This document shows, in pieces, positions 1 to 22,476 of a stretch of 51,013 bases of DNA. Source of the DNA: a virus. Positions within the stretch are counted from its first letter, which is position 1. Every line of letters starts with the position of its first letter. The stretch is taken from positions 1 to 51,013 of IMG/VR virus record IMGVR_UViG_3300032516_000040. One strand, given 5' to 3'. A program made the position numbers and the translations under genes. The notes beneath the pieces were generated by a model. It was given only the letters and a program-made list of their open reading frames with translations. It made no database searches and was not told the origin of the DNA.

Positions 1-32
1 TTTTTGATATTAACCTTTTCCATATTTCTCCC

Positions 33-947
33 TTAACATAGTTCTTTGATTTTATTAAAACAGTTCATTTCACTGTTATCAATAAGAGATCTTGCCGATA
101 CTAATTCACTTTCAACTTTTTGAACATCTACTATTGTTTCTATTAAATTTTTAATAGATCTCTTATTACATATATCAATGATATCTTGATCGACAATTTG
201 TTTAATTTCTTTTAACCATAGATTTCTATCAATATCGAATATATCAATCTCAATACTAACATCACAGGTTTTCTTCAATTCGTGATATTTGCTGATAATA
301 TCCTCTACTTTATGAGATTTATATTGTTCAAAAATATGTCTAATAATTTGAACAACCATTAGCTCAACTTTCTTATTTGATAACTTATTATAGTCATCTA
401 CATGTTTGAGCTTTACAGAATATTTCCAAAGATTATAATTATTAATTAATATCTCATCTACTCCGTATGAGTTTACTTTACCATCATTATCACAAAATAG
501 ATTATTAAAATTAAGTTTCTTAATTAAATAATCATTCCATATCTTACCACCTAATGTTTGAAGATTAGTTCCTTTTCTTTTTGGTTCAACTATAATATCT
601 AGAGTCGATCCAGATTCATCTATTAGACTTATATCTAAATTATCTGCATTTGATTCTAAAGATGAAAATGATGATGTAGGAACTCTTCCTTGAATTCTTA
701 TATTCTTTACATCCAATTTTCCATTAGGAATAATATTTAATGTTCCAATTCCAGTTGTTAAGATTGAATTCATTTGATCCGGCTCGAGCTCTTGAATATC
801 ACAATGTTTAAAATTCGGAAACACTATTACATTTGAACCCTTCTTCTCTAGTATATATACTAATCGTTTTGCAAGATCCCCTATTTTAAATTTAGGGATA
901 AGAGTTCTATAGAATGAAATTCCGATAGTAACTCCATGACCAATCAA
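33..947 (-). CDS. Hypothetical protein, 304 aa
   Basis: I do not recognise this protein. It is mixed alpha/beta and soluble, with no signal peptide or membrane segment. The C-terminal half is rich in Lys, Glu and Ile, as in helical proteins. The only start in this frame is a TTG with a weak ribosome site. A strong site (GGAGGTGACAA before ATG) lies upstream at 1035 in another frame. A one-base change in the A-run complementary to 1009-1013 would join that ATG to this frame and give a protein of about 333 aa. The annotated N-terminus is therefore uncertain. It is the most downstream gene in the window on this strand. Confidence 0.6.
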   Translation of the reverse strand: MIGHGVTIGISFYRTLIPKFKIGDLAKRLVYILEKKGSNVIVFPNFKHCDIQELEPDQMNSILTTGIGTLNIIPNGKLDVKNIRIQGRVPTSSFSSLESNADNLDISLIDESGSTLDIIVEPKRKGTNLQTLGGKIWNDYLIKKLNFNNLFCDNDGKVNSYGVDEILINNYNLWKYSVKLKHVDDYNKLSNKKVELMVVQIIRHIFEQYKSHKVEDIISKYHELKKTCDVSIEIDIFDIDRNLWLKEIKQIVDQDIIDICNKRSIKNLIETIVDVQKVESELVSARSLIDNSEMNCFNKIKELC

Positions 948-1035
948 TCCTAATGGAAGGGGACATGGAAGATAAACTGGTAGTGGGAGTACACCACGCT
1001 TGTGCTGCTTTTTGTAGTGATGAGCTTGTTGCCAT
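907..1035 (-). CDS. Small ORF with strong ribosome site, 42 aa, possibly truncated or frameshifted start of the next gene
   Basis: The ORF begins with MATSSSLQKAAQAWC and has one of the best ribosome sites in this end of the window (GGAGGTGACAA, ATG). It runs out after 42 residues and overlaps the start of the 33-947 gene in another frame. Two readings are possible. It may be the remains of a small phage protein cut at a recombination junction. Alternatively its ATG is the true start of the 33-947 gene, lost by one extra base in an A-run. The sequence alone does not decide this. Confidence 0.35.
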   Translation of the reverse strand: MATSSSLQKAAQAWCTPTTSLSSMSPSIRIDWSWSYYRNFIL

Positions 1036-1181
1036 GTTTGTCACCTCCAATGGGTTATCCACGTAAACTATCATAGGTATATATTTTGTTTTCAGGCTGG
1101 TCTGCAATCATCCCACGTCTGTTCTGATTTTTTTTAACTTCTTCTTCCTCCTTTCCGGTGTTAGACTCCAAAACCTTTACG

Positions 1182-1496
1182 TTAGCCTCTAATACGTTGT
1201 TTTTTAACCCGAAGTTCTTCCTCCAACCCCATAATCCTGACCCTTGCCTCGATCAGAAGTTTAGATAGGCGTGATCTTTCAACCTCACCATCCCTGATAT
1301 TTTCCTCATAGCCATCCACCAACATCTCAAACTCATCCCTGGGCCACGAGGCTGTGCCTCCAGTTTTGATATACTTCCTCCAGGTATCCCATAGCTTCAT
1401 GATTCCATCCCAATCATGTCTAACAGAGGATGGACGGCAATCCTCCCAAGTAGGTTTTTGGAACCCTTCAACGATTTTCTCGGTTGCTCTTTTCAT
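1182..1496 (-). CDS. Small coiled-coil-like protein, probably frameshifted near its C-terminus
   Basis: GGGAGG followed by ATG at 1496 sets the start (MKRATEK). The protein has a Trp-rich N-terminal half and a charged helical C-terminal half (residues about 70-100, Glu/Arg/Leu-rich). It stops at 1182 just after a run of six A (complement of 1200-1205). Skipping one A opens a frame that continues in the same style for about 45 residues (LEANVKVLES, then KEEEEVKK) to a stop at 1055, right before the ribosome site of the next ORF. I therefore think the intact gene was 1055-1496. Function unknown. Confidence 0.55.
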   Translation of the reverse strand: MKRATEKIVEGFQKPTWEDCRPSSVRHDWDGIMKLWDTWRKYIKTGGTASWPRDEFEMLVDGYEENIRDGEVERSRLSKLLIEARVRIMGLEEELRVKKQRIRG

Positions 1497-1513
1497 AATT
1501 CCTCCCAAGATTA

Positions 1514-1750
1514 TTATGTTGCCCTACGATTCCATTTCTCAATCGCCTCTTCTTTGTAAATTGCATAAACGTGGACATGGCAGCACTTGATATTAAATCC
1601 CTCTCTATAGTATTCTTCACCTATGCTATTATCCCAATATGTTTCAGGTTGCTTTCCACAAAACGGGCAACATAACAAATCACTCAAGTCTGTTTCCGGT
1701 GGTACGTATTCTCCGTGTCCGTTTGGCTGCCATGCGTAAAGTTTTACCAT
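1514..1750 (-). CDS. Lar-like restriction alleviation family zinc protein, 78 aa
   Basis: The protein has a CPFCG zinc knuckle at residues 28-32, a second Cys/His cluster (CCHVH) near residue 56, and ends with AIEKWNRR. The order CPFCG, then Cys/His, then the terminal A-I-x-x-W-N-x-R motif is the signature of the Lar family. Its founder, Rac prophage Lar, alleviates type I restriction and stimulates methylation. Start is ATG at 1750 after GGAGAG. An anti-restriction role is inferred from family membership only; many Lar-like phage proteins are uncharacterised. It follows a zinc-ribbon gene across the degenerate attC-like site at 1765-1800. Confidence 0.6.
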   Translation of the reverse strand: MVKLYAWQPNGHGEYVPPETDLSDLLCCPFCGKQPETYWDNSIGEEYYREGFNIKCCHVHVYAIYKEEAIEKWNRRAT

Positions 1751-1764
1751 TTCACTCTCCGTGC

Positions 1765-1800
1765 TATACAGAATTTTTTCTGTATAATCAGTTGTTAGAC
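1765..1800 (-). repeat. Degenerate attC-like site with perfect 9-bp hairpin
   Basis: Read on the minus strand, GTCTAAC (R''-like box) holds the stop codon of the upstream gene and is followed by AACTG and a hairpin with 9-bp arms (1765-1773 and 1778-1786) and a four-base loop. The expected second GTTRRRY box is missing, because the ribosome site of the next gene starts straight after the stem. Nineteen bases (1779-1797) are identical to 38215-38233 in the other attC-like cluster. Confidence 0.45.
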
Positions 1801-1974
1801 ATCCATTAATCGTTGATCATAACATTCGTAGCACCAAATATGATATTTCCCATCATCATCAATTATGCCTTCTCTGACGAAAGGATCTATTACACGACGG
1901 ACTTTTTGATCATTACCGCACCTTTCACATTTTCCATCATAAATATCATCATAATCTATCCATTCTTCTGTCAT
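1795..1974 (-). CDS. Small zinc-ribbon protein, 59 aa
   Basis: Start is ATG at 1974 after GGAGAG and the stop is at 1795. The translation begins MTEEWIDYDD and holds two CxxC knuckles, CERC near residue 16 and CYEC near residue 48, so one zinc ribbon is likely. The rest is acidic. The gene sits as one unit between attC-like sites: its ribosome site follows the GTTAGAC box of the site at 1991-2046, and its TAA lies inside the GTCTAAC box at 1794-1800. This is the layout of an integron cassette. Function unknown. Confidence 0.6.
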   Translation of the reverse strand: MTEEWIDYDDIYDGKCERCGNDQKVRRVIDPFVREGIIDDDGKYHIWCYECYDQRLMDV

Positions 1975-1990
1975 AATATCTCTCCAAGAT

Positions 1991-2046
1991 GTCTAACAAG
2001 GCACTCCAGCGGACGCCCAGGAACGCCGCTGACCTCTGTGTTATAT
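1991..2046 (-). repeat. attC-like recombination site (56 bp)
   Basis: On the minus strand the site runs from ATATAAC to GTTAGAC, which pair as R''/R' end boxes. Inside are a five-base spacer, CAGCGG, a short loop, CCGCTG, and a six-base spacer. On the + strand the left arm reads CTCCAGCGG and the right arm CCGCTGACCTC, leaving an unpaired base, as in integron attC. The stop codon of the upstream gene (2041-2043) lies inside the first box, and the ribosome site of the next gene follows the second box. Confidence 0.65.
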
Positions 2047-2244
2047 TCCCGCAGAATATTTCCAACATTCTGGATGTTTTGACCTTACCTTAACTTCATT
2101 AATGCTTTTCATCTCACGATTGTATGAATCTAATGTTGTACCGGATATTGTCATATTGTATCTCCCAAAATCATCCTGATGCAGGCAATCCTCTCCATTT
2201 TTTAAATCTCTTCCACAAAATCCACAAATTTGCCAATCCATCAT
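2041..2244 (-). CDS. Small zinc-ribbon protein, 67 aa
   Basis: Start is the first of two ATG codons after GGAGAAA (2244). The protein begins MMDWQICGFCGRDLKNGEDC and ends with a Lys/His/Cys segment (KHPECWKYSAGI). CGFCG with the later C and HxxxC can make one zinc site. The TAA is inside the attC-like end box at 2040-2046. It is flanked by attC-like sites on both sides (2262-2345 and 1991-2046). Function unknown; such proteins are typical accessory genes of large phages. Confidence 0.55.
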   Translation of the reverse strand: MMDWQICGFCGRDLKNGEDCLHQDDFGRYNMTISGTTLDSYNREMKSINEVKVRSKHPECWKYSAGI

Positions 2245-2261
2245 TTTCTCCAAAAACGAGA

Positions 2262-2345
2262 ATCTAACAATGCACTGAAATCCGACCATGATTAGCTGTG
2301 CCGAATTTAATCACGGTAGACGGTGGCTTAGTTCAGTCGTTATAT
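2262..2345 (-). repeat. attC-like recombination site (84 bp, longer form)
   Basis: End boxes are ATATAAC and GTTAGAT on the minus strand. On the + strand CTGAAATCCGACC pairs with GGTGGCTTAGTTCAG, leaving unpaired bases. The centre holds a second small stem (TGATTA/TAATCA). The variable central part with conserved ends is characteristic of attC sites. It lies between the stop of the 2350-2568 gene and the start of the 2041-2244 gene. Confidence 0.65.
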
Positions 2346-2349
2346 GGAA

Positions 2350-2568
2350 TTAATATTTCTCTCTGCATTGTGGATAATCTCTATTTAGGCATTTCCGGAA
2401 GATGCGCCTAAAAACGATAGGCCCACACTTTAAATTATATGAACCTAAAGCACCAGTTGGCGTCCGGCCTTCAGAATCAAATTCGTGTTCTCTTTCTGTT
2501 ACGGGAGCATAACATTTTTTCCGTCTACAACCTTTTGAAGGTAGATATTCAATGATTTCCTGTTTCAT
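2350..2568 (-). CDS. Small basic Cys-containing protein, 72 aa
   Basis: Start is ATG at 2568, about ten bases after GAGGG. The protein begins MKQEIIEYLPSKGCRRKKC and ends RKCLNRDYPQCREKY, with five Cys in Arg/Lys-rich surroundings. They could bind one metal ion, but no CxxC pair is canonical. The stop is four bases before the attC-like box at 2339-2345. I do not recognise a family. Confidence 0.5.
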   Translation of the reverse strand: MKQEIIEYLPSKGCRRKKCYAPVTEREHEFDSEGRTPTGALGSYNLKCGPIVFRRIFRKCLNRDYPQCREKY

Positions 2569-2582
2569 AAAGATAAACCCTC

Positions 2583-2637
2583 ACATAACAATTCACTCCA
2601 GCGGACGGGTGACAGCCCCGTGACCTCTGCGTTATAC
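2583..2637 (-). repeat. attC-like recombination site (55 bp)
   Basis: The + strand starts ACATAACAATTCACTCC and ends CTCTGCGTTATAC. The left end closely matches the TAACAATTC start of textbook aadA-type attC sites. The ATAAC/GTTAT boxes are inverted repeats and the inner arms share a CGGG/CCCG stem. The stop of the 2632-2853 gene lies in the GTTATAC box. Together with the neighbouring sites this gives a regular gene/site/gene pattern. Confidence 0.65.
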
Positions 2638-2853
2638 AATATAGCTTCCTTCCGGTATTATATATCGTCCCCGTCCTCCTGCACCGGCAATTCGGCAATT
2701 GCTCATCATATGCTCATGGCATTGATTCGTCATTCGTTTATAGGCATTGCACGTTTTCACCCGATGAGGATTACAACAAAGATACCCGCTTTTGTTTGGA
2801 TTGTTGCAGTTACGTCCGCTGCCATATTTGCACCAGTACATTTCTCGATTCAT
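2632..2853 (-). CDS. Cys/His-rich small protein, 73 aa
   Basis: GGAGG before ATG at 2853 sets the start (MNREMYWCKYGSG). There are seven Cys and several His in the first 55 residues (CKYGSGRNC, YLCCNPHRVKTC, CHEHMMSNC). The spacing suggests two metal sites. The C-terminus is Gly-rich and short. The coding strand is the same as its neighbours; the competing + strand frame has no ribosome site and unnatural composition. It is flanked by attC-like sites at 2875-2920 and 2583-2637. Function unknown. Confidence 0.55.
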   Translation of the reverse strand: MNREMYWCKYGSGRNCNNPNKSGYLCCNPHRVKTCNAYKRMTNQCHEHMMSNCRIAGAGGRGRYIIPEGSYIV

Positions 2854-2874
2854 TTTTCCTCCAAATAAATAAAA

Positions 2875-2920
2875 GCATAACCAGTCACTCCAGCACACGC
2901 CGCTGACCTCTAAGTTATAC
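2875..2920 (-). repeat. attC-like recombination site (46 bp)
   Basis: Minus-strand boxes are GTATAAC and GTTATGC, with inner CAGC/GCTG arms and the same CTCCAGC and GCTGACCTC core words as the sites at 1991 and 2583. The stop of the 2915-3127 gene lies in the first box. It is the shortest clear site of this array. Confidence 0.6.
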
Positions 2921-3127
2921 AGATAAGATTCTCTCGACAGACCTCATCAATTCTTGTTCACATTCCGAATGGCACAGATCACCAGGTGAAAAATTACGTT
3001 CAGGATGGTCAAAGTACGACAAATCGGGTAATGCAATCTTATCACAATTTGGTTTACCACAATACACGCAAATATCTGTATCATCATGGGTTTTTGTATA
3101 TTCTTCGAGTCTTTCAGTTAAAGTCAT
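2915..3127 (-). CDS. Small zinc-binding protein, 70 aa
   Basis: GGAGGAGAAT before ATG at 3127 fixes the start (MTLTERLEEY). The middle has CVYCGKPNC and the later part CHSEC, enough for one zinc site. The ends are helical and charged. The gene follows the partly decayed attC-like site at 3141-3181 and ends in the site at 2875-2920. Function unknown. Confidence 0.6.
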   Translation of the reverse strand: MTLTERLEEYTKTHDDTDICVYCGKPNCDKIALPDLSYFDHPERNFSPGDLCHSECEQELMRSVERILSV

Positions 3128-3140
3128 ATTCTCCTCCAAG

Positions 3141-3181
3141 TCATAGCCACTCACTCCAACGGACGCCCAGGAGCGTTAGAT
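3141..3181 (-). repeat. Partly decayed attC-like site (41 bp)
   Basis: Minus-strand ATCTAAC, a five-base spacer, TGGGCGTCCG, TTGGAG and a six-base spacer are intact, but the second box reads GCTATGA instead of GTTATGA. The core shares CACTCCA and GGACGCCCAGGA words with the 1991-2046 site. The 3151-3258 gene reads through it. Confidence 0.5.
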
Positions 3182-3258
3182 GATTTGTGGTATTCCGTGG
3201 ACAGCCCATCTATCAACTCACGTAGCGTATTAGCATTCCACCGCTTGTAAATAACCAT
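3151..3258 (-). CDS. Small protein, 35 aa, reading into an attC-like site
   Basis: The frame from ATG at 3258 gives MVIYKRWNANTLRELIDGLS and then STEYHKSSN before the attC-like box. The last seven residues are encoded by the attC-like sequence itself. A GTG immediately upstream could also start it. The composition looks natural, but the ribosome site is weak. It may be the shortened end of a longer gene, since the frame is open upstream only to a stop near 3270. Confidence 0.35.
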   Translation of the reverse strand: MVIYKRWNANTLRELIDGLSTEYHKSSNAPGRPLE

Positions 3259-3466
3259 CACTTCTGGTTTCCAAAATGACCTTTATTCTATTCATATTAA
3301 ATAGGTTTTACTAGATTTAAACTGTAAAAGATTTTCAGAAAAACTAAGAATTTGAAAAATGCCGAAGCTATTTCCGAGATATATTTCTAGAGGAGATCTG
3401 GGATGGTCCCCACGGTCCTTGCATCCTGACCTCCTTTCTCTTCCTTATACATGTCCAAATCTCCAT
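3259..3466. other. Intergenic stretch with possible 18-aa ORF and small palindrome
   Basis: No substantial gene is visible. On the minus strand a strong ribosome site (AGAAAGGAGGTCAGG) precedes an ATG at 3424 that opens only 18 codons (3368-3424, MQGPWGPSQ). It overlaps a GGATG/CATCC palindrome at 3402-3426. The rest is A+T-rich, with no recognisable promoter consensus I would defend. It separates the attC-linked genes from the terminase operon. Confidence 0.3.
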
Positions 3467-4027
3467 TCATGCCCATAAATCTTCTAAATATAAAAAATGC
3501 TCAACATTGCTAATCATATAACCACAAAACTGTCTCCACTGAGGTAATTTATGGCTTTTACGTTGACTTATAATATTTCTAAGAACCTTGTAATTCATTA
3601 CCCAAATACGTCTCTGCAAAAAACCCTCTGGTAATATATTTTTTAAATGTGGTAAAGATACTTTTTTATCAATTAAATCATTAATATAATTAAGAATTTT
3701 AGGCGAAATATCATATTCAAAATCAGTCTGTTCTAAATGTCTTTTACCTAATGTATGTATTGTACTCTCACTCTGTTTAGTGGTAAGTCTAAATGTATCC
3801 ATTTCACTCCAAACAAAACGTGGAGCTGTGATATCTATCCAAATAAAAATACTTTCTAAAAACTTATTGTGACCTCCTTCTAATTTAGCCAATTTAACAT
3901 CTACTTTATTATTTATAACATAGTTTAAAGATTTCCCATAAGACAAAGAAATCCCAAGTAATGCTTCTTTGTAACCAGATTCTTTTAAAATTTTAATTAT
4001 CAAAGTTTTACCCAAAGCTAAAATCAA
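3467..4027 (-). CDS. Conserved phage protein, possibly ThyX-like fold, 186 aa
   Basis: The pattern of a Trp/Asp segment (APRFVWSEMDTFRL), then QSESTIHTL, then LPEGFLQRRIWVMNYKVLRNI, then QRKSHKLPQWRQFC resembles a phage family that I associate with the ThyX-like fold. ThyX uses RHR-type motifs to bind dUMP; the canonical RHRxxSxNExSxR string is absent, so thymidylate synthase activity is not claimed. It starts at TTG (4027), overlapping the terminase gene by 20 bases, so the two are translationally coupled. It is the last gene of the terminase-led run. Confidence 0.4.
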   Translation of the reverse strand: MILALGKTLIIKILKESGYKEALLGISLSYGKSLNYVINNKVDVKLAKLEGGHNKFLESIFIWIDITAPRFVWSEMDTFRLTTKQSESTIHTLGKRHLEQTDFEYDISPKILNYINDLIDKKVSLPHLKNILPEGFLQRRIWVMNYKVLRNIISQRKSHKLPQWRQFCGYMISNVEHFLYLEDLWA

Positions 4028-5558
4028 AACTTGACCCCATAATCCCCATTAATGCAAGAGCCATAGCCATAACTATATCATCATGAGCACCAGATGGAGC
4101 ACCCATTTTATCCTGCTTTAAATAGGCAAATCGTTTAGCTTCTTTTATAAATTCTTTACTATTAATCCTTAATGTTTCACTACGAATAGCTCTATCTAGT
4201 TCTTCTATCATTTGAACCTTACTTAATCCAGTTGTAAGCCACCCTAATTTTCTATCAGGACCTGTATAAATTCTAGGATATGATGGATATTTTACGACTC
4301 CATTTCGAACAATACCATTAGAAAGATTTAAAAGAACTGCGTGTCCATGGTTATTTCGTTCTACCACTAAAATAGCATCATTGTAGGCTTTTCCTATTCT
4401 ATGAATCTTTTCACTAAGCATATCGGGAGACCAACGCCCATGTAAAAGTGCTACCTGTTCTATTGGAAACGGAAAACCTCTAACAACGACAGCAGTTCCA
4501 TAGTCAGAATTAACATCTCCCTCTGATGGATCTATTCCTATGAAGTATCTAGCATTAGGTTCTGCAATTTTATGAATAAACAAATCACCACCAAGCCATA
4601 TTTCAGTAGGTTCTTGTTTTTCTAACTGTTTATCTATACTATCCAATAACTCTACATCAAAGACTGGAGAACCTGTTTTAAGAAATGCAGTATCATCATC
4701 TCTTTCTGGATATTCTTGAATAAATTTTTTACCTAAAACTTCAATCTTATTTCTTCTCCATTTTATTTGAGACATAGCTAATCTATAATGCTGTTTTAAT
4801 TCAGTTTCTTCCTCAGTTAAATGTAGTTTTTCACCAGTTAATACCGGTATTTGATATTCATTATGTTCAAACCATCTATAATAATGGGCTTTGTATTCAT
4901 TCTCACCATCTCGTGCTTTAATATAGTACTGATGAAATATATTTCCCTCACCTCTTGCCGTAGATTCTAGAACAACTCTACCACCCGATGGAACAGACTC
5001 TAATAACCCATTAAAAAACTCTTCCTTCCAAGCTGAAGCACTAACTTCAGAGCAGTGAAGATTATTTATTGTTTTTGAACGTCCAAATTCTTTAGCTTCT
5101 GCAGAACCTATTGTAAATTTTGAATTTATTACGTCAAAAAATAACTCTTTTTTATTAGAACGCTTAACATGAGGTTTCAATAATTCTGGAATGCTGTTAA
5201 ACATAAATTTAGCTCTATCAAATAAATCTGCAGCATCTTGTTCCGTATGGGCTACTATAATTGAGATAGTATTGGGAACAAACATAGTATCATGAAGAAA
5301 TAACCCAATTATAGCTGTACTAAATCCAAGTTGCCTGGGTTTTAGAATTATATCTCTAAGAGTTTTTTCTTTATAGTATCTGTTTTGGGACGGCAAAAAT
5401 ACAAACGGAACCGTTCTTTTATTTTTATCTACTATTGAAACCACAGATTCTAAAAAATATTTAGGGTCGTATAAAATTCGTTCATAAAGAGATCCTGTAG
5501 AAAGCCGATCATTCCATTTCTTTACTTTTTGAAAAGTTTTTTCAGTTGAAAAAGTCAC
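4008..5558 (-). CDS. terL: Terminase large subunit (DNA-packaging ATPase/nuclease)
   Basis: This is the packaging motor, which pumps and cuts phage DNA at the portal. Residues 71-82 (ILKPRQLGFSTA) form the Walker A-like arginine/glycine motif. NNLHCSEVSAS around 165-178 is Walker B with its catalytic acid, and VVLESTARGEG is the coupling motif. The C-terminal nuclease half shows FIGIDPSEGD near 341, VVERNNHG, and AHDDIVMAMALAL with the final acidic residues. The length of 516 aa is normal for the family. Start is GTG at 5558 after GGAGGAGGTGTGACT. No small subunit or portal gene is visible in the window. Confidence 0.92.
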   Translation of the reverse strand: MTFSTEKTFQKVKKWNDRLSTGSLYERILYDPKYFLESVVSIVDKNKRTVPFVFLPSQNRYYKEKTLRDIILKPRQLGFSTAIIGLFLHDTMFVPNTISIIVAHTEQDAADLFDRAKFMFNSIPELLKPHVKRSNKKELFFDVINSKFTIGSAEAKEFGRSKTINNLHCSEVSASAWKEEFFNGLLESVPSGGRVVLESTARGEGNIFHQYYIKARDGENEYKAHYYRWFEHNEYQIPVLTGEKLHLTEEETELKQHYRLAMSQIKWRRNKIEVLGKKFIQEYPERDDDTAFLKTGSPVFDVELLDSIDKQLEKQEPTEIWLGGDLFIHKIAEPNARYFIGIDPSEGDVNSDYGTAVVVRGFPFPIEQVALLHGRWSPDMLSEKIHRIGKAYNDAILVVERNNHGHAVLLNLSNGIVRNGVVKYPSYPRIYTGPDRKLGWLTTGLSKVQMIEELDRAIRSETLRINSKEFIKEAKRFAYLKQDKMGAPSGAHDDIVMAMALALMGIMGSSFDFSFG

Positions 5559-6157
5559 ACCTCCTCCCAGTAAGTTTTTAGAATGTCGTCAAACTTATGA
5601 TAAATTGAACGAGTTACTTTAACATCGTACAGTGCATTGTGAAAATCTCCATTTTTATCTTCTTTTACCTCTAGCAAATCCGCCACAGTTTCTAATTTAA
5701 AATTAGGAAACACTAATCTATAGTCTTGACAAAAATAGGTAACAATTTGAGATACGTCTAACCAAGGATGCCAGAACCAACTTCCAAAATACTTATCATC
5801 GTTTTTAGTAAACCATGACCTAAGAACCTGATTATCAAAATCTGAAAAGTATCCGATTACCAAAAACTTATCTGCCTGATTAAACTTATTAACATGCTTA
5901 CTTAAAATTCCTGTAAATTCTTTATATACATCTCTTGGATTATTAAATGTTCTAATCATTTCAATTGTCATGTTATTTTTTTCAAGAGATTCTTCTAAGA
6001 CAACATCATTGTCGAAGATATTACAAAACAAGTCAAATTCTTCTGTAATAAGGAGATGTTCCTCAGATTCAATTTCAATTATACCCGCAATTTGATATAA
6101 TCCAGATTTTTCAGGATCTAAACCAGTAGTTTCAGTATCAATAAATAACTTTTTCAA
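5555..6157 (-). CDS. DnaQ-like 3'-5' exonuclease
   Basis: A DEDD-family exonuclease of 200 aa. Motif I is FIDTETTGLD at residues 5-14. Motif II is YFSDFDNQVL near 107-116. Motif III is FHNALYDVKVT near 172-182, with the catalytic His and Asp. Enzymes of this type proofread or trim DNA or RNA 3' ends. The start is TTG at 6157 after GGAGACAACTTTT. It overlaps terL by four bases. The C-terminal DNA polymerase lies far away and has its own exonuclease domain, so this one is probably separate, for example in recombination or RNA degradation. Confidence 0.85.
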   Translation of the reverse strand: MKKLFIDTETTGLDPEKSGLYQIAGIIEIESEEHLLITEEFDLFCNIFDNDVVLEESLEKNNMTIEMIRTFNNPRDVYKEFTGILSKHVNKFNQADKFLVIGYFSDFDNQVLRSWFTKNDDKYFGSWFWHPWLDVSQIVTYFCQDYRLVFPNFKLETVADLLEVKEDKNGDFHNALYDVKVTRSIYHKFDDILKTYWEEV

Positions 6158-6720
6158 AAAAGTTGTCTCCTCTTTTTAAGCAAAATCTTTGGTTTATTAA
6201 GCTGATCTAAAGTTAAAACTAGTTTTCTTTTCAAGTAATCTAAACTTCCATCATTAACCAAAACAGCATCAACAATAATAGAATCTTGTTCTGTTTCTGA
6301 AACATCTCTATCCTGTTCTTGAATCTCTTGAATCTCTGGCCGTATTATTCTAACCAATTTACCACTTTCCTTCTGAATAAAAAGAACTTCGTTGCTCATC
6401 CTAACATCATCAATCACGATATTTTTACCCTTACACAAATCAGAATTAATAAAATCTTTTACAGGTAAAATCCAGGAATCTTTGTAAACCTGCCTCCCTA
6501 AATTTCCCCATTTCTGTAACAAATTCCTCACAGTAAAATTAGGCATAACCTCAAAATCCTTATTATTGAAACAATAACTTAACGGTATACTATAAACCAT
6601 TGAAACAATCATCTTCAATCTATCAGCAAAAGATATTTTAACAAAGTTGTAATCCTTCATTAGCAACGAGGCAACTGTAGATTTTCCAGACTGTTTTTTT
6701 CCTAAAAGTCCTAGTAACAA
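6154..6720 (-). CDS. Deoxynucleoside monophosphate kinase (T4 gp1-like)
   Basis: P-loop GKKQSGKST at residues 7-15. FADRLK and the later FTVRNLLQKWGN, YKDSWI and IDDVRMSNE segments match phage dNMP kinases such as T4 gp1 (LID and acceptor-site regions). The enzyme phosphorylates dNMPs to dNDPs to feed DNA synthesis. With a 7-deazaguanine pathway in the same genome it may have to accept ordinary dGMP only. Start is TTG at 6720 after GGAGGCGGTGTGACT, and it overlaps the exonuclease gene by four bases. Confidence 0.75.
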   Translation of the reverse strand: MLLGLLGKKQSGKSTVASLLMKDYNFVKISFADRLKMIVSMVYSIPLSYCFNNKDFEVMPNFTVRNLLQKWGNLGRQVYKDSWILPVKDFINSDLCKGKNIVIDDVRMSNEVLFIQKESGKLVRIIRPEIQEIQEQDRDVSETEQDSIIVDAVLVNDGSLDYLKRKLVLTLDQLNKPKILLKKRRQLF

Positions 6721-6837
6721 GTCACACCGCCTCCTCCCTAAACTTAAAAAGATTTTCCTTTAGACCATCTCATCTAATTTCACCTCTAAATTCTTACCAC
6801 AAACTGACAGATGAGGTTTACCTTCGTTTACAAGATT

Positions 6838-7272
6838 TCAAAAGTTTCTCCAGCTTGAATTCATATCTTTAGATTCTCTGTGAGTAATTCCAACATCTAC
6901 ACCTAAAAACTTATCCTTAGGTTTTGCCTTTTCTACCTCTCTCTGTAATTCCTTCCCACAAACTGGGCAGAAGTTAAAGCGATAACTATTTTCAAATGGT
7001 TTTTCTATCGGACAGTGTAACCATTCTTGTCGTTCGTGATTGGAATACTCACACCAGCACTCTCTGTTTTTAGGTTTTTCACTAGCCTGATTATCCCCAT
7101 GATGGCAGTGATCCCAGGAGTATAATGGTAAATATCTACTCTTGTGAATTTCCTTGCAGTCTTTACATAAATCTGATTTCATTTTTACACCTCCACCACG
7201 GGGATTCTCAAAAGAACTCGCTGGAATAACCGAGGCACAACTATTTCTGTTTTCGTCAATAGATATTTTCAT
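6838..7272 (-). CDS. Cys/His-rich protein, 144 aa, with internal start
   Basis: Two good starts exist in one frame. ATG at 7272 follows GAGGAGG, and an internal ATG (MKSDLCKDC) at about residue 31 follows GGAGGTGT. The shorter product carries CKDCKEIH, WDHCHHG, WCEYSNH, LHCPIE and CPVCG motifs, so two zinc sites are likely. The first 30 residues are Ser/Pro/Gly-rich and look unrelated, as if a short gene had been fused in front. Function unknown. Confidence 0.55.
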   Translation of the reverse strand: MKISIDENRNSCASVIPASSFENPRGGGVKMKSDLCKDCKEIHKSRYLPLYSWDHCHHGDNQASEKPKNRECWCEYSNHERQEWLHCPIEKPFENSYRFNFCPVCGKELQREVEKAKPKDKFLGVDVGITHRESKDMNSSWRNF

Positions 7273-7363
7273 TTTTCCTCCTCATAACCATTCTATTCTC
7301 CCATAGGCGATGAAAGATTACGAATAGATGAACAAACAGCCATTTTTCATGTTTAAAGTTCAT
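7256..7363 (-). CDS. Small basic protein, 35 aa
   Basis: ATG at 7363 has a strong ribosome site (GGGAGGAAAAGAA). The product begins MNFKHEKWLFVHLFVIF and ends in a basic tail that runs over the start of the next gene. The hydrophobic/aromatic centre (residues 8-20) could lie in or on a membrane. Length and start signals fit a real small phage gene. Function unknown. Confidence 0.4.
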   Translation of the reverse strand: MNFKHEKWLFVHLFVIFHRLWENRMVMRRKNENIY

Positions 7364-7383
7364 TTCTTTTCCTCCCTAACACC

Positions 7384-7521
7384 TTAACCTTGTTTACCAC
7401 AAAAAGGACAAACTGAAAACCAATGATACCTTTCAGGATATAATCTACTCATCATCAGTTGCCAGATATTTCCACAGCATTCCCACTGTTTAGTTCGATA
7501 GTCTAACCATCTTAGTTTCAT
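7384..7521 (-). CDS. Small Cys-rich protein, 45 aa, paralogue start MKLRWLDY
   Basis: Starts MKLRWLDYRTKQWECCGNIW at 7521 after TCCGGAG, and ends with a CPFCGKQG zinc knuckle. ECCG plus CPFCG gives four Cys for one zinc. The ATG overlaps the stop of the upstream gene (ATGA). The first eight residues, and the DNA around them, are the same as in that upstream gene, so the two share a duplicated 5' end. Function unknown. Confidence 0.5.
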   Translation of the reverse strand: MKLRWLDYRTKQWECCGNIWQLMMSRLYPERYHWFSVCPFCGKQG

Positions 7522-7661
7522 ATCATTATCTCCGGAGTTCTGTAATCGTCGTTTACCGCCTTGCACTTTTTACAAATACCATATACTTCTCCGTTAAGGT
7601 CTATATGCCATTCCCATTCGTGTTCACATTTTTCTTGATAGTCTAACCATCTTAGTTTCAT
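7497..7661 (-). repeat. 25-bp direct repeat covering the start of two adjacent genes
   Basis: Bases 7497-7521 and 7637-7661 are identical over 25 positions. Each copy encodes MKLRWLDY, the start of the 7384-7521 and 7518-7661 genes. The copies are 140 bases apart. This is either a tandem gene duplication that later diverged or a recombinational start-module swap. Confidence 0.8.
7518..7661 (-). CDS. Small zinc-knuckle protein, 47 aa
   Basis: Reads MKLRWLDYQEKCEHEWEWHI and continues with GVYGICKKCK-like spacing (CEH plus CKKC, one zinc site). The stop overlaps the ATG of the next gene. The ribosome site is weak, so translation may depend on the upstream gene. It is the sister of the 7384-7521 gene through its identical first eight codons. 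Function unknown. Confidence 0.5.
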   Translation of the reverse strand: MKLRWLDYQEKCEHEWEWHIDLNGEVYGICKKCKAVNDDYRTPEIMI

Positions 7662-7668
7662 TTCAAGG

Positions 7669-7860
7669 TTACGAATTCCCAGAATAGTGGAACGGCTTCA
7701 ACTCATCTTCAACAGCTTTTGCAGCAGCCTTAAGACAAGACGCCAGTCCGTATTCTCTTTTATGTGTAAACTGACAAAGTTCTCTCTGATTTATCCGAAG
7801 AGAATAGGTACAGATATCAAAGGGTTCATCAAAATTAGTTATGTTAACAATTGCAACCAA
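7669..7860 (-). CDS. Hypothetical protein, 63 aa
   Basis: The start is TTG at 7860 after GGAGTAACTT. The product is a small soluble alpha/beta protein (MVAIVNITNFDEPFDICTYS at the N-terminus, an Ala/Lys-rich helix later). Two Cys are too far apart for an obvious zinc knuckle. No family is recognised. It sits among small accessory genes between the kinase and the metallopeptidase. Confidence 0.5.
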   Translation of the reverse strand: MVAIVNITNFDEPFDICTYSLRINQRELCQFTHKREYGLASCLKAAAKAVEDELKPFHYSGNS

Positions 7861-7944
7861 AAGTTACTCCTAAGTTAAAAGATTATCTAAACTTCTAGAA
7901 ACTTTGATAAGATTCTTCTTTTTATTAGTAATAAATAATTTTTT

Positions 7945-8430
7945 TCACTCCGTAATATGATGAGACGTTCTTATTAAACGTCTTCTTTCTGAAGTTTTAC
8001 TAATAATTGGGCTAGGTGGATTTTCTATCAAACCACCTAGTTGCTCTCGTCTAAAGGAAAATCTTTTTAAGTTTTCTGGAAATTCTTCTATAACATGCTT
8101 TCTTAAAACCCACTTTGTTTCAGCCTCAGAGTTTATTTGAATAGCACAGTGACACAATTCGTGATCTAGTAAACATCTTTTCTCATTAAGAGTCATTCTG
8201 TCCCAAGATGGTTGAACAATAATTATTACAAAATCTTCCCTTCTTGCAGAAAGTAATTTGTCAATTTCATCTCTTTTAGCAGCTCTACCCAGTATTGCTC
8301 TACCATTGCCCTCAGAAAATGGAGTATCTCTAAATAAATATGTTATATTTGCTTCGTTAAGATGTGTATGATATTCTCCAATTAACCCGCGTGCTAAAGA
8401 AGTTACTTCTTCATTGGCTATTTCGTACAT
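7945..8430 (-). CDS. Putative phage metallopeptidase
   Basis: HELCH at residues 90-94 is an HExxH zinc-metalloprotease motif. It sits after a beta-strand (FVIIIVQP) and before a helix, as in the putative phage metallopeptidase domain family (161 aa here, normal size). A Trp, Asp and basic C-terminal tail (SERRRLIRTSHH) follow. No signal peptide is present, so it acts in the cytoplasm. The target is unknown; some relatives are thought to process phage or host proteins. Start ATG at 8430 after GGAGAATATACT. Confidence 0.65.
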   Translation of the reverse strand: MYEIANEEVTSLARGLIGEYHTHLNEANITYLFRDTPFSEGNGRAILGRAAKRDEIDKLLSARREDFVIIIVQPSWDRMTLNEKRCLLDHELCHCAIQINSEAETKWVLRKHVIEEFPENLKRFSFRREQLGGLIENPPSPIISKTSERRRLIRTSHHITE

Positions 8431-8447
8431 AGTATATTCTCCTTTCT

Positions 8448-8561
8448 TTATCCTCTAAAACAATATTTAACCAGTGTAAAACCCAATTCTATCTTCTGGT
8501 TACATTCCCTGCAAATACCGTTTAGCTTCTTACTTTTTCTATAATTTGCTTGACTTCCCAA
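8448..8561 (-). CDS. Very small zinc-knuckle protein, 37 aa
   Basis: A TTG at 8561 opens a frame that overlaps the end of the clamp loader gene and reads GSQANYRKSKKLNGICREC, then ends KYCFRG. NGICREC plus a later Cys could bind a metal ion. A similar NGICLECSKKK string survives without a start near 11680, supporting a recurrent small family. Initiation signal is modest (GGA five bases upstream). Confidence 0.4.
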   Translation of the reverse strand: MGSQANYRKSKKLNGICRECNQKIELGFTLVKYCFRG

Positions 8562-9510
8562 AAATTCCATGAGGATCAACGTTAGCAGCCTCCCATAATG
8601 CCAAAATAAAACTTCCTTTACCCAGATAAATAAATGATTTAGAAAAAATCCGCATAATTGAAACTAAAAATTCCTGATCTTCTTTACTTTTATCCAGATT
8701 TAAAAGAACAGCTGAAAAATAATTTAAAATTGCTAATCTAGATTGTTCTATATCGGCATCCCCTAAACCTTTTATCATAGGAACCATGTTAAGCCACTTA
8801 TCTTTAGTATTAGTGAGTAAAAGTCTACAAATATCTATAATTTTTACACTATCAACCGATGAATCATTTATTATTTCCAATGCTTTTTTAGAATCGTGTA
8901 AATCTATAATAGATTCAAGTATAATAAGTGCCTGTCTTGCCGAGCCTAAACAAACCTTAGATATTTCTCTTAGTATATCCTTCGATACAGACTTATTTTC
9001 TAATTTACATACTCTATCCAAAAGCGAAAGAATCATAAACTCGGGTAACTGTTTAACGACCAATGTAGTACATCTATTTCTAACCGTCTTTATTACTTTT
9101 TCAGGATCAGTTGTACACAGAATAAAGTACACCTTAGACGGAGTATCTTCTAAAATCTTTAAAAGAGAATTTTGTGCATCTGAAGTTAATTTATGAGCTT
9201 CATCCAATAAAAATAATCTATTACCACCACTAAAAGTTGAATAGTTACAAATTTCAATAACCTCACGAATTGTATCTATTCCACGGGTATTAGCAGCGTT
9301 CAACTCAGTAAAATCAGAATCTTCTACATTTAATTCAGATTTTACAATACGTGCAAGAGTAGTTTTACCACAGCCACTAGAACCTGAAAGTAAAATAACA
9401 CTAGGAAATTCAGACTTCTTTAAAAAAAGAGTCTTTAATACGGCAACAACATTTTCATTACCCACAAACTCAGCTAAAGATTTTGGTCTGTATTTAAGAT
9501 AAAGTTGCAA
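8539..9510 (-). CDS. Clamp loader ATPase subunit (DnaX/RFC-like)
   Basis: This loads the sliding clamp (27859-28884) onto primed DNA. Residues 43-51 (GSSGCGKTT) are Walker A, LFLLDEAH near 98-105 is Walker B, and LCTTDPEKVIKTVRNRC carries sensor 1 and the arginine-finger region. The 323-aa length fits the single-subunit clamp loaders of large phages (T4 gp44-like), shorter than bacterial DnaX. The DnaX zinc module between Walker A and B is absent. No gp62-like small subunit is recognised. Start is TTG at 9510 after GGAGGTTACTT. Confidence 0.85.
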   Translation of the reverse strand: MQLYLKYRPKSLAEFVGNENVVAVLKTLFLKKSEFPSVILLSGSSGCGKTTLARIVKSELNVEDSDFTELNAANTRGIDTIREVIEICNYSTFSGGNRLFLLDEAHKLTSDAQNSLLKILEDTPSKVYFILCTTDPEKVIKTVRNRCTTLVVKQLPEFMILSLLDRVCKLENKSVSKDILREISKVCLGSARQALIILESIIDLHDSKKALEIINDSSVDSVKIIDICRLLLTNTKDKWLNMVPMIKGLGDADIEQSRLAILNYFSAVLLNLDKSKEDQEFLVSIMRIFSKSFIYLGKGSFILALWEAANVDPHGIFGKSSKL

Positions 9511-9566
9511 AGTAACCTCCTTTTCAACTACAGATAGTTCCTTTCTTAGTTGATCTTGTCATTGTT

Positions 9567-10529
9567 TCATGTTTTTCCATAGCTTCTCCGATTTCGTCCC
9601 ATAATATCCTCAATCATAAAGTAATCTGCCAAAATATCTAAGTATAGTTCATTAACTTCTTTAAAACTAGGTGAATAAGGTAAAACTGACTTTTTAGATA
9701 AAACAGAAAACTTCTCATCAAATCCTCCAATCAGTTCTAAAATTTGATCATAAGAAAATTTTCCCTTTTTAATATCCAGTAAAAAATCAGCATTAGGACG
9801 AGGAAGAGTTATCTTTCCATACTCCAATAATTCTTCTCCCTCTTCCATAAGTCTAACTAAATGAGAAGCATGTTTTACATCATAACCAAATTGAAATTCT
9901 AGTTCGGCTCTTTGCTTATTTCTTCCTTTCTCCCATGCCGCATAATCATCCCACATTTTTTTAGCTTGTCTAAAAAAGCTCTCTTTTGAAGCTTCTTCTT
10001 TAATATTCGCAGCTAAAAGATGTTCAGAAAGACTAAGAATAGCTGCTAAACTATCATGACTTAATGTTGGATTAACGGATAGCCCAAATTTTTCTCTTTT
10101 CGGTTCTTCTTTTATAGGATGTAAAAGATAGCCTCTATGCCTTTTAATTCTATGCAACTGAGCATGTGCATATCCCGAAAATGTATGGGTAACATTTTTA
10201 GAGAGAAATAAATCCCGTTTAGAAACAATTTGATCCCAGATATAAGATTTTCTTAAGATTACTGATTCTGGTAAGAAAAATAATTCTATAATAGATGGAT
10301 TGTTTTTAAGACTCATCTTAAAAAACTTGTCAAGACTATATATTATTCTATCGTCATACTTTCCATCCCAACCATCCTTCTGCTCAAATCTGTCAAACCC
10401 TAGTAAAATATTTAAAGGTGGTATACAAACCCCTCTATAATCTTCATCACTTAATTCATCGTTAGTCCCATAGGCATGACTACCAACTATAGCTTCAAAA
10501 ATAATATGCGTTTCGATATTCCATTCCAT
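9567..10529 (-). CDS. Predicted nucleotidyltransferase (RlaP-like, PF10127 type)
   Basis: The N-terminus has the polymerase-beta-type motif GSHAYGT (residues 16-22) and the metal-binding pair in SDEDYRG (D28 and D30). A long helical region with VRLMEEGEELLEYG follows, as in the YcgL/RlaP family (320 aa, typical). These proteins are predicted to add nucleotides to RNA ends and are linked to RNA ligases. Two ATP-dependent ligases are present in this window (38603 and 46280). The reaction is not proven. Start ATG at 10529 after GAGGG. Confidence 0.7.
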   Translation of the reverse strand: MEWNIETHIIFEAIVGSHAYGTNDELSDEDYRGVCIPPLNILLGFDRFEQKDGWDGKYDDRIIYSLDKFFKMSLKNNPSIIELFFLPESVILRKSYIWDQIVSKRDLFLSKNVTHTFSGYAHAQLHRIKRHRGYLLHPIKEEPKREKFGLSVNPTLSHDSLAAILSLSEHLLAANIKEEASKESFFRQAKKMWDDYAAWEKGRNKQRAELEFQFGYDVKHASHLVRLMEEGEELLEYGKITLPRPNADFLLDIKKGKFSYDQILELIGGFDEKFSVLSKKSVLPYSPSFKEVNELYLDILADYFMIEDIMGRNRRSYGKT

Positions 10530-10538
10530 TTTATTCCC

Positions 10539-10754
10539 TCATTCCACTAAATTCATACCTGCTTTTTCTAAACATTCTTTGCAAACAGATACTGGAAAGC
10601 TATTTCCTTCAATTATAGTTGGAATTTTCTGTGAAATTAGTTTGTACTGCTTACAAAGAAAACAAAGAAAAATTTCTTGTAAATATCGAGCTTCACATTT
10701 TTCCCGTTTTACCGCCTCCTTAGCTTCTATTATTTCTATTTCGTTATCTATCAA
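10539..10754 (-). CDS. Small zinc-ribbon protein, about 71 aa
   Basis: CFLCKQ near the middle and CKEC near the end make a four-Cys zinc ribbon, separated by a beta-rich segment ending FPVSV. The frame opens at a TTG at 10772, but the better start is TTG at 10754, seven bases after GGAG (the end of the sigma-like gene). The N-terminal part is acidic and helical. Such proteins could bind nucleic acid or act as phage regulators; nothing specific is known here. Confidence 0.6.
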   Translation of the reverse strand: MIDNEIEIIEAKEAVKREKCEARYLQEIFLCFLCKQYKLISQKIPTIIEGNSFPVSVCKECLEKAGMNLVE

Positions 10755-10758
10755 AGAT

Positions 10759-11481
10759 TTACTCCAATTCAACTATTTCTTTAATAATAGACTTTGTTTT
10801 TTCAGAACTTTTGCTTAAAATCTCTTGCTTAAGTCTTTCCTTAATCTTATCTTTAAATGACAAAAAAGTTAAAACAGACATTTTAGATGATTTTCTAAGT
10901 TTCGATAAATCTTTTGCGTCTCCAAAAATAATAGTATTAACCAAATCTCTTTCTAGTTGAGTTTCAAACACGATACTGTTTAAAATAACTTTAACCTCTT
11001 CTAAAACACTTTCCTTTTCTATACATTCTTCATCAAAAAATCGAATTGGTTCATCTATTTTTTGATTCTGAATTCTTTTTTCTATTTTATAGTCTCTTGT
11101 CTTATGATACCTATCAAGTCTTACGATATTCATAATTTCTTGATTAAGAATATCCCCTAAAAAAGTCAAAAATTTAGTTTTCCTATTTCTATCCCAAATA
11201 TTTAACGCTTTAACAAAAATAAAAAAACTTTCCTGAAATAATTTTTGAACCAAATCTTTATCTGATAAAACCAATGATTTTCTTTTACGAATATATGTAT
11301 GGACCCTATTATAGACTATACCTTGAATCTGATTCCACCCCAAATTTCTAAGTTCAGTACTTGCATAAGTAATACCTAAATCACGAGTCTTTTGATAAAG
11401 CAATGCTAAATCATCATACCAAGATGTATCAAACTTGACCTTTGTTATCTTTTTATCTTTTTTAGCTATATTAATATTCAA
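10759..11481 (-). CDS. Sigma-like transcription factor 1
   Basis: The central part (LVQKLFQESFFIFVKALNIWDRN, then KFLTFLGDILNQEIMNIVRL) resembles sigma-70 region 2, which binds the core polymerase and the -10 element. The basic C-terminal part could be a region 4 relic, but I see no clear helix-turn-helix. Length 240 aa. T4-type phages use a similar short sigma (gp55) to read late genes. Start is TTG at 11481, overlapping the upstream small gene. A second sigma-like gene lies at 35749-36495. The call rests on weak similarity. Confidence 0.5.
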   Translation of the reverse strand: MNINIAKKDKKITKVKFDTSWYDDLALLYQKTRDLGITYASTELRNLGWNQIQGIVYNRVHTYIRKRKSLVLSDKDLVQKLFQESFFIFVKALNIWDRNRKTKFLTFLGDILNQEIMNIVRLDRYHKTRDYKIEKRIQNQKIDEPIRFFDEECIEKESVLEEVKVILNSIVFETQLERDLVNTIIFGDAKDLSKLRKSSKMSVLTFLSFKDKIKERLKQEILSKSSEKTKSIIKEIVELE

Positions 11482-11648
11482 CCCTCCAATCTAGAAAAAA
11501 CATCATCAACGTATTGCAAAACTAATTTATTCAAATCACTTTTAGGATCGTAATTCAAAACATCTTCTATAGCTTCTTCGATATCAGAAGATGTTAACTT
11601 ATTATAGATTAAATAATAAATGAATAATTTTAATTTTTCATTTTTCAT
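11478..11648 (-). CDS. Small helical protein, 56 aa, upstream of sigma-like gene
   Basis: ATG at 11648 follows a strong ribosome site (GGAGGAGATT). The product begins MKNEKLKLFIYYLIYNKL and is acidic and helical later (DIEEAIEDVL). The stop overlaps the TTG of the sigma-like gene, so the two are probably co-translated. A partner or regulator of the sigma-like protein is a reasonable guess from position only. Confidence 0.55.
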   Translation of the reverse strand: MKNEKLKLFIYYLIYNKLTSSDIEEAIEDVLNYDPKSDLNKLVLQYVDDVFSRLEG

Positions 11649-11732
11649 AATCTCCTCCTTCTTTTTACTGCACTCAAGACATATCCCATTTTACCTTTAT
11701 TTTGAAATTAGATGTCTACAATCATAAAGTAA

Positions 11733-11772
11733 CCTAATCCTCACGGTTTAGACCCTTACGGGTGATTGGCAC
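11733..11772 (-). repeat. GNRA-hairpin repeat, copy 1
   Basis: On the minus strand GTGCCAATC is followed by ACCC-GTAA-GGGT and then CTAAACC-GTGA-GGATTAG. These are two adjacent hairpins, each with a GNRA tetraloop. The copy starts six bases after the ribonucleotide reductase stop codon. Copies 2-4 lie at 18449, 19676 and 21709. Confidence 0.65.
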
Positions 11773-11775
11773 CTC

Positions 11776-18198: not shown

Positions 18199-18413
18199 TA
18201 AGAGATTCCTCCCTCGTTTGCCAAAACAAATACATACAAACTGACTTTAGGTCTCCCTGTATGTTGAGATTGATCCACTTCGGGATTGTTATCAGTCAGT
18301 ACTATATCCTGAACACTGAGACTTTGATCTCTGTTTAATCCAGGATTTACAGAGCTACAGACTTGTGGAGCATCCATAGGTGTGTTCTTTAACTCTCCTG
18401 ATAACTTCTGCAT
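18198..18413 (-). CDS. Hypothetical protein, 71 aa
   Basis: The product is polar (Asn/Gln/Ser-rich, for example SSVNPGLNRDQSLSVQDI) with a hydrophobic C-terminal strand (VSLYVFVLANEGG). ATG at 18413 has no strong ribosome site (only GGGAG about 20 bases upstream). The stop overlaps the start of the next gene. GNRA-hairpin repeat copy 2 lies just upstream of its start. No family is recognised. Confidence 0.45.
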   Translation of the reverse strand: MQKLSGELKNTPMDAPQVCSSVNPGLNRDQSLSVQDIVLTDNNPEVDQSQHTGRPKVSLYVFVLANEGGIS

Positions 18414-18448
18414 AGAATTTACTCTAGCTCCCTAACCAACCAGTTTCC

Positions 18449-18487
18449 CCTAATCCTCACGGTTTAGGCCCTTACGGGTAATTGGCC
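18449..18487 (-). repeat. GNRA-hairpin repeat, copy 2
   Basis: On the minus strand the element reads GCCAATT, ACCC-GTAA-GGGC, CTAAACC-GTGA-GGATTAGG. It is nearly identical to copy 1 (11733-11772). It covers the last codons and stop of the 5' nuclease gene and ends about 36 bases before the next start. Confidence 0.65.
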
Positions 18488-21040: not shown

Positions 21041-21244
21041 TTACACCTCCTCCTTTGAGTTAGTATTTACAGGGACTTTAGCAGTTAGTCTGTTAATCCA
21101 GGCTAACTTCTCCTGTCCTTTCCGAGCAATATTGATTGCAGCATTCAAATCTGCATTCACCATGTTCCCACAGCCAGTACAAACAAAATTGCTCTGGTTC
21201 ACTCGACTATGTTTGTCTAGATGACCACAACTAGTTAGTTTCAT
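21041..21244 (-). pseudogene. TnpB (IS605 OrfB) C-terminal zinc-finger remnant
   Basis: The 67-aa frame reads SCGHLDKHSRVNQSNFVC, then TGCGNMVNADLNAAINIARKG. This is the zinc ribbon and last RuvC aspartate (NADLNAA) of TnpB, the RNA-guided nuclease of IS200/IS605 elements. The N-terminal domains and most of RuvC are missing, and the first Cys of the first pair is lost. No TnpA and no clear transposon ends are seen. Its last codons run into the recA ribosome site. It may be inert or may now make a small zinc protein. Confidence 0.75.
21050..21069 (-). repeat. 20-bp near-identical repeat (with 16061-16080)
   Basis: Bases 21050-21069 and 16061-16080 match at 19 of 20 positions. In both places they encode NTNSKE at the end of a frame and contain the AAAGGAG ribosome site of the next gene (recA and sbcC). 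This could be a shared fragment left by a mobile element or simple duplication of a start region. Confidence 0.6.
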
Positions 21245-21708: not shown

Positions 21709-21745
21709 CCTAACTATCCTTACGGCCCTTATAGATGATTGGCAC
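21709..21745 (-). repeat. GNRA-hairpin repeat, copy 4 (diverged)
   Basis: On the minus strand TGTGCCAATCA begins the copy, followed by TCTATAAGGG and CC-GTAA-GGATAG. One GNRA stem is intact, the other degraded. It covers the last four codons and stop of folE and leads into the ribosome site of the 21304-21687 gene. Confidence 0.5.
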
Positions 21746-22334: not shown

Positions 22335-22476
22335 TTTCCTCCTTTTTAACCCCGCAAAAACGGCAATAACCATCCTTCCAATAATCTACAAAATAGTCCT
22401 GATCTTCAATAACTCCATTTAAAATTCTAAACACTCTTTCTGGACAGACAAAAATATCAGAATTAAAATGTCTCAC
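22288..22476 (-). CDS. Small zinc-knuckle protein between queE and folE, 62 aa
   Basis: GTG start at 22476 after GGAGTGTA, overlapping the end of queE. CPERVFR and later CRFCG could form one zinc site with the remaining Cys near the C-terminus. The protein overlaps the start of folE by about 47 bases in another frame. Its position in the 7-deazaguanine run may be chance; small zinc proteins are everywhere in this genome. Function unknown. Confidence 0.45.
   Translation of the reverse strand: MRHFNSDIFVCPERVFRILNGVIEDQDYFVDYWKDGYCRFCGVKKEENEEKIRELGEVCRTV

Follow-up and report, generated by a model that had tools for sequence, protein, structure and literature searches.

The small-gene stretch at 1.8 to 3.2 kb of the window (i.e., the whole stretch of DNA analyzed, a complete 51,013-base virus record of IMG/VR) is a CALIN, an array of integron cassettes that lacks an integrase, in a phage genome, the genes of which, including those for terminase and DNA polymerase, are carried on the minus strand. 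Phage arrays without an integrase are already known; the systematic reversal of the cassettes, the phage landing sites, and the turnover between near-identical phages are new. We consider the following reading highly probable: the phage has this CALIN and a second cluster at 38 kb, cassettes with reversed genes turn over at G|TT in close relatives, the integrase is supplied in trans, and the cargo is a swappable accessory set.

An earlier note on this DNA had read six palindromes in the small-gene stretch as attC sites. Four of them are full attC-type sites on the plus strand, each recognized by a covariance model (R1; see below): S2 (positions 1991 to 2047; 58.5 bits; E = 6.6e-14), which has an intact stem, a left box TAAC, and a right box GTTA; S3 (2262 to 2346; 21.5 bits; E = 0.0029), with a long terminal structure; S4 (2583 to 2638; 42.1 bits), with a partly decayed stem; and S5 (2875 to 2921; 38.3 bits), with a deletion in the stem-loop. 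These four matches lie within 0.95 kb and are not accompanied by intI, a CALIN being defined by at least two close attC sites without intI. The two outermost palindromes, judged by their sequences, are of other kinds. S1 is an attI-like landing site at the end of the array (1783 to 1800, plus strand; TATAATCAGTTG|TTAGAC, with the cut between 1794 and 1795); within positions 1765 to 1800, a hairpin 5' of the landing site (1766 to 1787) is followed by this motif, and a second box is absent. S6 (3141 to 3181, plus strand), which R1 misses, is an attC remnant with a retained 5' half, a deleted 3' half, and a degenerate left box (TAGCC), and carries CACTCCAACGGACG at 3152 with 1 mismatch.

The sites delimit five cassettes with genes on the minus strand: C1 (1795 to 2040; gene at 1795 to 1974; 59 amino acids, Cys-rich; attC on the 5' side of the gene), C2 (2041 to 2339; gene at 2041 to 2244; 67 amino acids with a CxxC motif), C3 (2340 to 2631; gene at 2350 to 2568; 72 amino acids), C4 (2632 to 2914; gene at 2632 to 2853; 73 amino acids, Cys-rich; weak match to PHROG 2924, E = 0.003), and C5 (2915 to 3175; gene at 2915 to 3127; 70 amino acids with CxxC motifs). 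All five genes are open frames with ribosome sites. As the earlier note had stated, the stop codon lies in a box (i.e., TAA within GTTA, read on the opposite strand) and the ribosome site follows the other box. The cargo comprises small Cys-rich proteins, none of which has a secure family assignment. A Lar-like gene (1514 to 1750) had also been counted as cargo; it lies past the S1 end site without a flanking pair of attC sites, and it was rejected as a cassette because of this position outside the landing site.

R1 is derived from other viral sequences. Viral contigs were scanned for TAAC-N4/5-CACTCCAGCGGACG, which yielded 24 contigs, and 26 sites from these contigs, with window sequences left out, were aligned for building the model. 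Its structure, which was named by the analyst and then counted on the alignment, consists of two helices (R box and inner stem), in which two fixed positions are occupied by single unpaired bases. In the alignment, 86% of the cells are paired, versus 21 to 44% in slid versions; across the 19 pairs, 34 cells changed on both sides, versus 12.9 in shuffles (score reached by 0 of 500). Both extrahelical positions are visible as bulges at columns 18 and 24. The related sites have the paired inner L'/L'' arms with extrahelical bases and an unpaired spacer; in the window, this structure is intact only in S2. In the 51-kb window, R1 produced five matches at an E value of ≤5, all on the plus strand, namely four of the reported sites and one at 38469 to 38533. 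CACTCCAGCGGACG occurs five times in the window with ≤3 mismatches, versus 0.35 expected. In plasmid p1658/97, R1 also matches four attC sites of the class 1 integron (50.5 bits [aadA1], 28.2 bits, and 25.1 bits among them). Since the model cross-recognizes class 1 attC sites, the window sites are of the attC type; S2 to S5 and the site at 38469 to 38533 are real attC-type sites.

The proposed RYYYAAC/GTTRRRY boxes fit only loosely: TAAC/GTTA is nearly fixed in the 26 related sites, and the outer three bases vary, partly with covariation. S2 to S5 agree with the attC box form, while S1 and S6 fail it. A scan of the window with the consensus missed every real site and returned six pairs that are due to chance, and box scanning is therefore unusable as a test. 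Free folding of single sites, which had been put forward as a check for a hairpin, was weak and did not produce the attC form, for which comparative structure is needed. The palindromes could instead be ordinary intergenic hairpins (i.e., terminators or a phage linker repeat) that resemble attC and are immobile: their positions coincide with the ends of genes, a terminator could account for the hairpin at 1766 to 1787, and the window's stems are damaged, with most of its cassette ends unmatched. We regard this explanation as extremely improbable, given the recognition of class 1 attC sites by the same model and the extrahelical positions and spacers arranged as in attC; it is also contradicted by an empty/filled pair of genomes and by different cassettes at one landing site, both of which are described below.

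The ends of a single integron cassette are complementary because they are joined in the excised circle. Among 36 neighboring site pairs, the right box of the first site matched the left box of the site after it over a mean of 4.5 nt beyond GTT, versus 1.8 nt for the two boxes within one site, and the observed mean was reached by 0 of 10,000 shuffles. In the window, the ends of C1 (TTGTTAGACATC and GATGTCTAACAA) are complementary over 12 nt (1792 to 1803 with 1988 to 1999); end pairing over 9 to 11 nt has been published for integron cassettes (Bouvier et al. 2009, PMC2727003). Three of the four window cassettes between called sites match poorly at their ends (runs of 1 to 2 nt), in keeping with the damage to the stems in this region. 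The array of the window has partly decayed and, with its damaged stems and poorly matching ends, may be immobile at present. In its relatives, the cassette is a unit that is bounded by G|TT cuts and that inserts and excises whole.

This turnover is seen in three records from different metagenomes (L029, L032, and L041), the backbones of which are 99.8 to 99.97% identical over 6 to 7 kb and the arrays of which differ. The arrays of two records that represent shorter stretches of the same phage (L039 and L172) differ too. In this phage, a landing sequence, GGTTTGTTAATCAATGG (one copy reads GGCTTG...), adjoins one gene start, and five cassette starts were found directly after its GG (cut GG|TTA): TTATGCAG, TTAGAATG, TTATGTGG, TTATATTCC, and TTATGCCG. 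Two cassettes, B and C, occupy different places in different relatives; cassette B is preceded by an attC in L032 and by the landing sequence in L041, and the attC located upstream of the start of its gene is the one that moves along with the cassette. Landing sites occur in the forms TATAATCAGTTGTTA and TTTGTTAATCAATGGTTA, and methyltransferases of the N6_N4 and MT-A70 types, as well as a PAPS-reductase-type protein, are among the cargo of the relatives. A second case is provided by G027 and G028, which belong to one phage type (parts 97 to 99.9% identical, with some stretches lower). G027 reads CTCTTG|TTATGCG, while in G028, 253 bp consisting of one reversed gene and one attC lie between G and TTATGCG. 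These two genomes are a natural empty/filled site at the integron cut, and G028 is probably complete, as its ends are identical over 127 bp. Gene content between the sites thus changes in both sets of relatives, which was the comparison that the earlier note had called for.

The attC sites might also serve mainly as short shared homology through which phage annealing recombination swaps genes, with no integrase acting in phages today. The cores are indeed very similar (up to 57 nt), and the attC of cassette A in L029 and L032 has the same 5' half and a different 3' half that stays with the right neighbor. We judge this explanation to be unlikely. The junction of G027 and G028 shares only GTTAT, homology between the landing site and the cassettes does not extend past G|TTA, and ends match per cassette and not per site. 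Together with covariation and recognition of class 1 sites, the end matching and the empty/filled comparison uphold the reading of these units as integron cassettes.

Several observations concern the fine structure of the arrays. Mosaic attC sites occur in L029 (13340 to 13396), L032 (1323 to 1379), and L041 (9975 to 10030), where the 5' half accompanies the left cassette and the 3' half belongs to the neighbor on the right; the halves in L029 versus L032 suggest that homologous exchange takes place inside attC as well. A cassette shared by L041 (site at 7960 to 8018) and L039 (119 to 177) is 98.5% identical, and its attC shows a compensatory pair change (GCAGTGG..CCACTG versus GCAGAGG..CCTCTG); variation in attC stems thus seems to be faster than in the cargo. 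Genes starting with MKRATEKIVEGFQ/MKESTERIIEGLQ adjoin cassette arrays in several phages (window, 1182 to 1508; L005, 6011 to 6376; L029, ~12788 to 12851; L032, ~1868; L041, ~7034), and in L041 the 5' end of a gene of this type is duplicated along with the landing site.

In the standard integron, extrahelical bases set the polarity of the cassette and thereby ensure expression from the integron promoter (PMC2727003). In the phage arrays, the gene is antisense to its attC in 40 of 43 cassettes (5 of 5 in the window); the corresponding figure for the class 1 control is 0 of 4, all four R1 matches there being in gene sense. The three sense exceptions among the 43 are weak calls that have no ribosome site. 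The usual placement of attC downstream of the gene, which is the common arrangement but not an absolute rule, is not the one followed in these arrays. Each gene of the window's array is reversed, so that its stop codon is found in the R' box and the attC belonging to it precedes its start. The suspicion of the earlier note that the cassettes are inserted in the reverse sense is therefore borne out, both by the extrahelical-base rule and, independently of the model, by the insertion joints of cassette B and the 253-bp insert. Alternatively, the cassettes could be canonical and the other strand recombinogenic, if an unusual integrase cut the left box and only the extrahelical bases were flipped; the sites are nearly symmetric, and the gene stops adjoin the box that would then be R''. 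Such an arrangement is very unlikely, since cassette B and the 253-bp insert have their attC upstream of the gene start with the joint on the right box, and since the same site orientation corresponds to gene sense in the class 1 control. Among published phage arrays that we examined, that of TJE1 is canonical and that of MW202573 is reversed (2068 to 2703; attC antisense to the genes), so reversal of the cassettes also occurs outside this site family. We found no remark on systematic cassette reversal in the literature searched.

The second cluster, at 38 kb, is smaller and decayed. It opens with the right half of a lost attC, CGCCGCTGAGCTCAAACGTTAGC (38073 to 38096), which has no R1 match, followed by a short site (38194 to 38236) with the second copy of the attI-like 18-mer at its end (CTGTATAATCAGTTG|TTATCGG), a degenerate attC (CCGATAACAAGTCATTCGAGCGGAC...; 38386 to 38429), and an attC-type site that was absent from the six reported earlier (38469 to 38533; 42.7 bits; E = 2.3e-9), all on the plus strand; the half site and the degenerate attC were assigned by inspection of the bases. 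The left box of the short site, GCAAGCTAAC, complements GTTAGCTTGC at 38090, and the left box of the degenerate attC complements GTTATCGG at 38230. The stretch from about 38.1 to 38.5 kb contains half sites and short cassettes with perfectly matched ends (GTTAGCTTGC/GCAAGCTAAC and GTTATCGG/CCGATAAC). The 18-mer CTGTATAATCAGTTGTTA has exactly two copies in the window, one at 1780 and the other at 38216; the cassette that begins at G|TT differs between the two, and the landing site at 1783 to 1794 is repeated at 38219 to 38230.

Bacterial CALINs are often relics, and the array might be a decayed fragment of a host integron that was acquired once and has no function in the phage. The damaged stems, half sites, and short cassettes of the window would suit such an origin. 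We nonetheless consider it quite improbable, as all five genes are open and have ribosome sites, two separate clusters share the same landing 18-mer, and relatives from different samples show recent turnover. A record of the window's phage with a different array was not found: G026 is 100% identical to positions 36164 to 51013 and adds 38.5 kb, and it holds no second version of the array at 1.8 to 3.2 kb. A landing site followed by a family-type attC was found only in L055, which is the window's own phage; the one further array-like match to the landing-site search (L110) was due to chance by appearance.

In the cassette-exchange explanation that we favor, cassettes would be gained and lost at G|TT, where integrons are cut, with one attC each, as is shown in the close relatives. 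An integron integrase of the host or of a co-resident element would recombine the folded attC strand in trans, and its targets on the phage would be the attI-like (or attG-like) landing sites. Reversed cassettes would persist because at the landing sites only reversed genes follow the direction of phage transcription. The cargo would constitute a swappable accessory set, probably of anti-defense genes. A wider proposal, which we offer tentatively as about as plausible as not, if slightly less so, is that sediment phages keep reversed cassettes in a pool of their own, have landing sites dedicated to cotranscription of the captured genes with phage genes, borrow the host integrase, and swap anti-defense genes within a phage species.

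The related records were searched with the TIGR02249 profile, and the window record and its 38.5-kb extension were searched with PF00589. No match to the phage-integrase, integron integrase, or resolvase families was detected in the window record, its extension, or six related genomes (G027, G028, G029, G012, G024, and G022), and the controls matched; the statement that no integrase is visible in the window thus holds for the extension and relatives as well. These sequences contain no complete integron (i.e., intI beside attI and Pc). A few other records do encode tyrosine recombinases, but not IntI. Since these genomes, one of which is apparently complete, contain no integrase, the recombinase probably acts in trans. 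A genome scan with the narrow pattern CACTCCAGCGGACGN{2,32}TGACCTC gave seven matches, all of which were chance on inspection and gave no clue about the host, and a pattern search in 400 genomes of Chloroflexota, the sole phylum sampled, gave none; within this coverage, the sites were not encountered in any integron of a host. Megablast of window positions 1 to 12000 returned nothing from named phages, nor did short attC sequences retrieve any named phage or plasmid, and the matches in a search with the 16-mer GTWTAATCAGTTGTTA were mostly due to chance.

CALINs of virulent phages have been described for Tetrasphaera phage TJE1, Pseudoalteromonas phage H101/PH101, Polaribacter phage P12002L, and Myoviridae sp. 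MW202573, and five of six tested phage attC sites recombined with attI1 via IntI1, with the cut at G|TTRRRY (Qi et al. 2023, PMC9892861). As in those phages, the arrays described here consist of attC sites without an integrase and, in relatives, have DNA methyltransferases in their cargo. The existence of an attC array in a phage is therefore less unusual than the earlier note had considered it; what is unusual is the polarity and the turnover. The sites of TJE1 are in gene sense, whereas those described here are antisense; MW202573 has the same reversed polarity, on which the available sections of PMC9892861 contain no remark that we could find. Population turnover and an empty/filled pair, as seen here, were likewise not found in those sections. 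The class 1 cassettes of p1658/97 (aadA1, aac(6')-Ib, and others) share the boxes, the spacers, and, in the modeled strand's 5' half, C and A as extrahelical bases, but their genes are in attC sense and point away from attI, with intI1 and Pc adjacent. Insertion of integron cassettes at non-attI genome sites (i.e., attG) has been reported (Loot et al. 2024, as cited in PMC12901181 and PMC11389934), and insertion of an attC-bearing cassette at a non-attI GTT fits the empty/filled pair; unlike in the attG cases cited there, insertion here takes place into a phage and makes repeated use of one landing motif. Integron parts in an unusual relative orientation are also known from Spirochaetota, where the integrase gene is reversed (PMC9668308), whereas here the cassette genes are turned and the integrase is absent.

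The near-identical genomes provide natural evidence that phages gain and lose cassettes with nucleotide precision without a phage integrase. Cassette polarity is usually explained by the need for expression from the integron's promoter; the arrays show that in phages it can consistently be the opposite. Exchange of methyltransferases and accessory genes among phages, and the possibility that host integrons serve phages, thereby become testable.

Other features of the window's phage genome were observed in addition to the arrays. A HEARO (OMEGA-type) RNA (18268 to 18486, minus strand; 101 bits) has no adjacent IscB/IsrB-type gene and is thus an orphan guide RNA in a phage; in the relative L005, the HEARO RNA (4402 to 4632) overlaps an RRXRR plus HNH gene (3192 to 4547). 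A 67-amino-acid C-terminal TnpB/Cas12f1-like fragment (21041 to 21244, minus strand; PF07282, E = 1.7e-7) is present, the rest of the gene being missing. Genes for GTP cyclohydrolase I, a radical SAM protein (QueE-like), PTPS (QueD-like), and QueC (21729 to 23522 and 31615 to 32346, minus strand) form a queuosine-type (preQ0) set, which suggests 7-deazaguanine DNA modification. A 914-amino-acid multi-PAS histidine kinase with a response-regulator domain, which is unusual for a phage genome, is encoded at 39547 to 42291 (minus strand).
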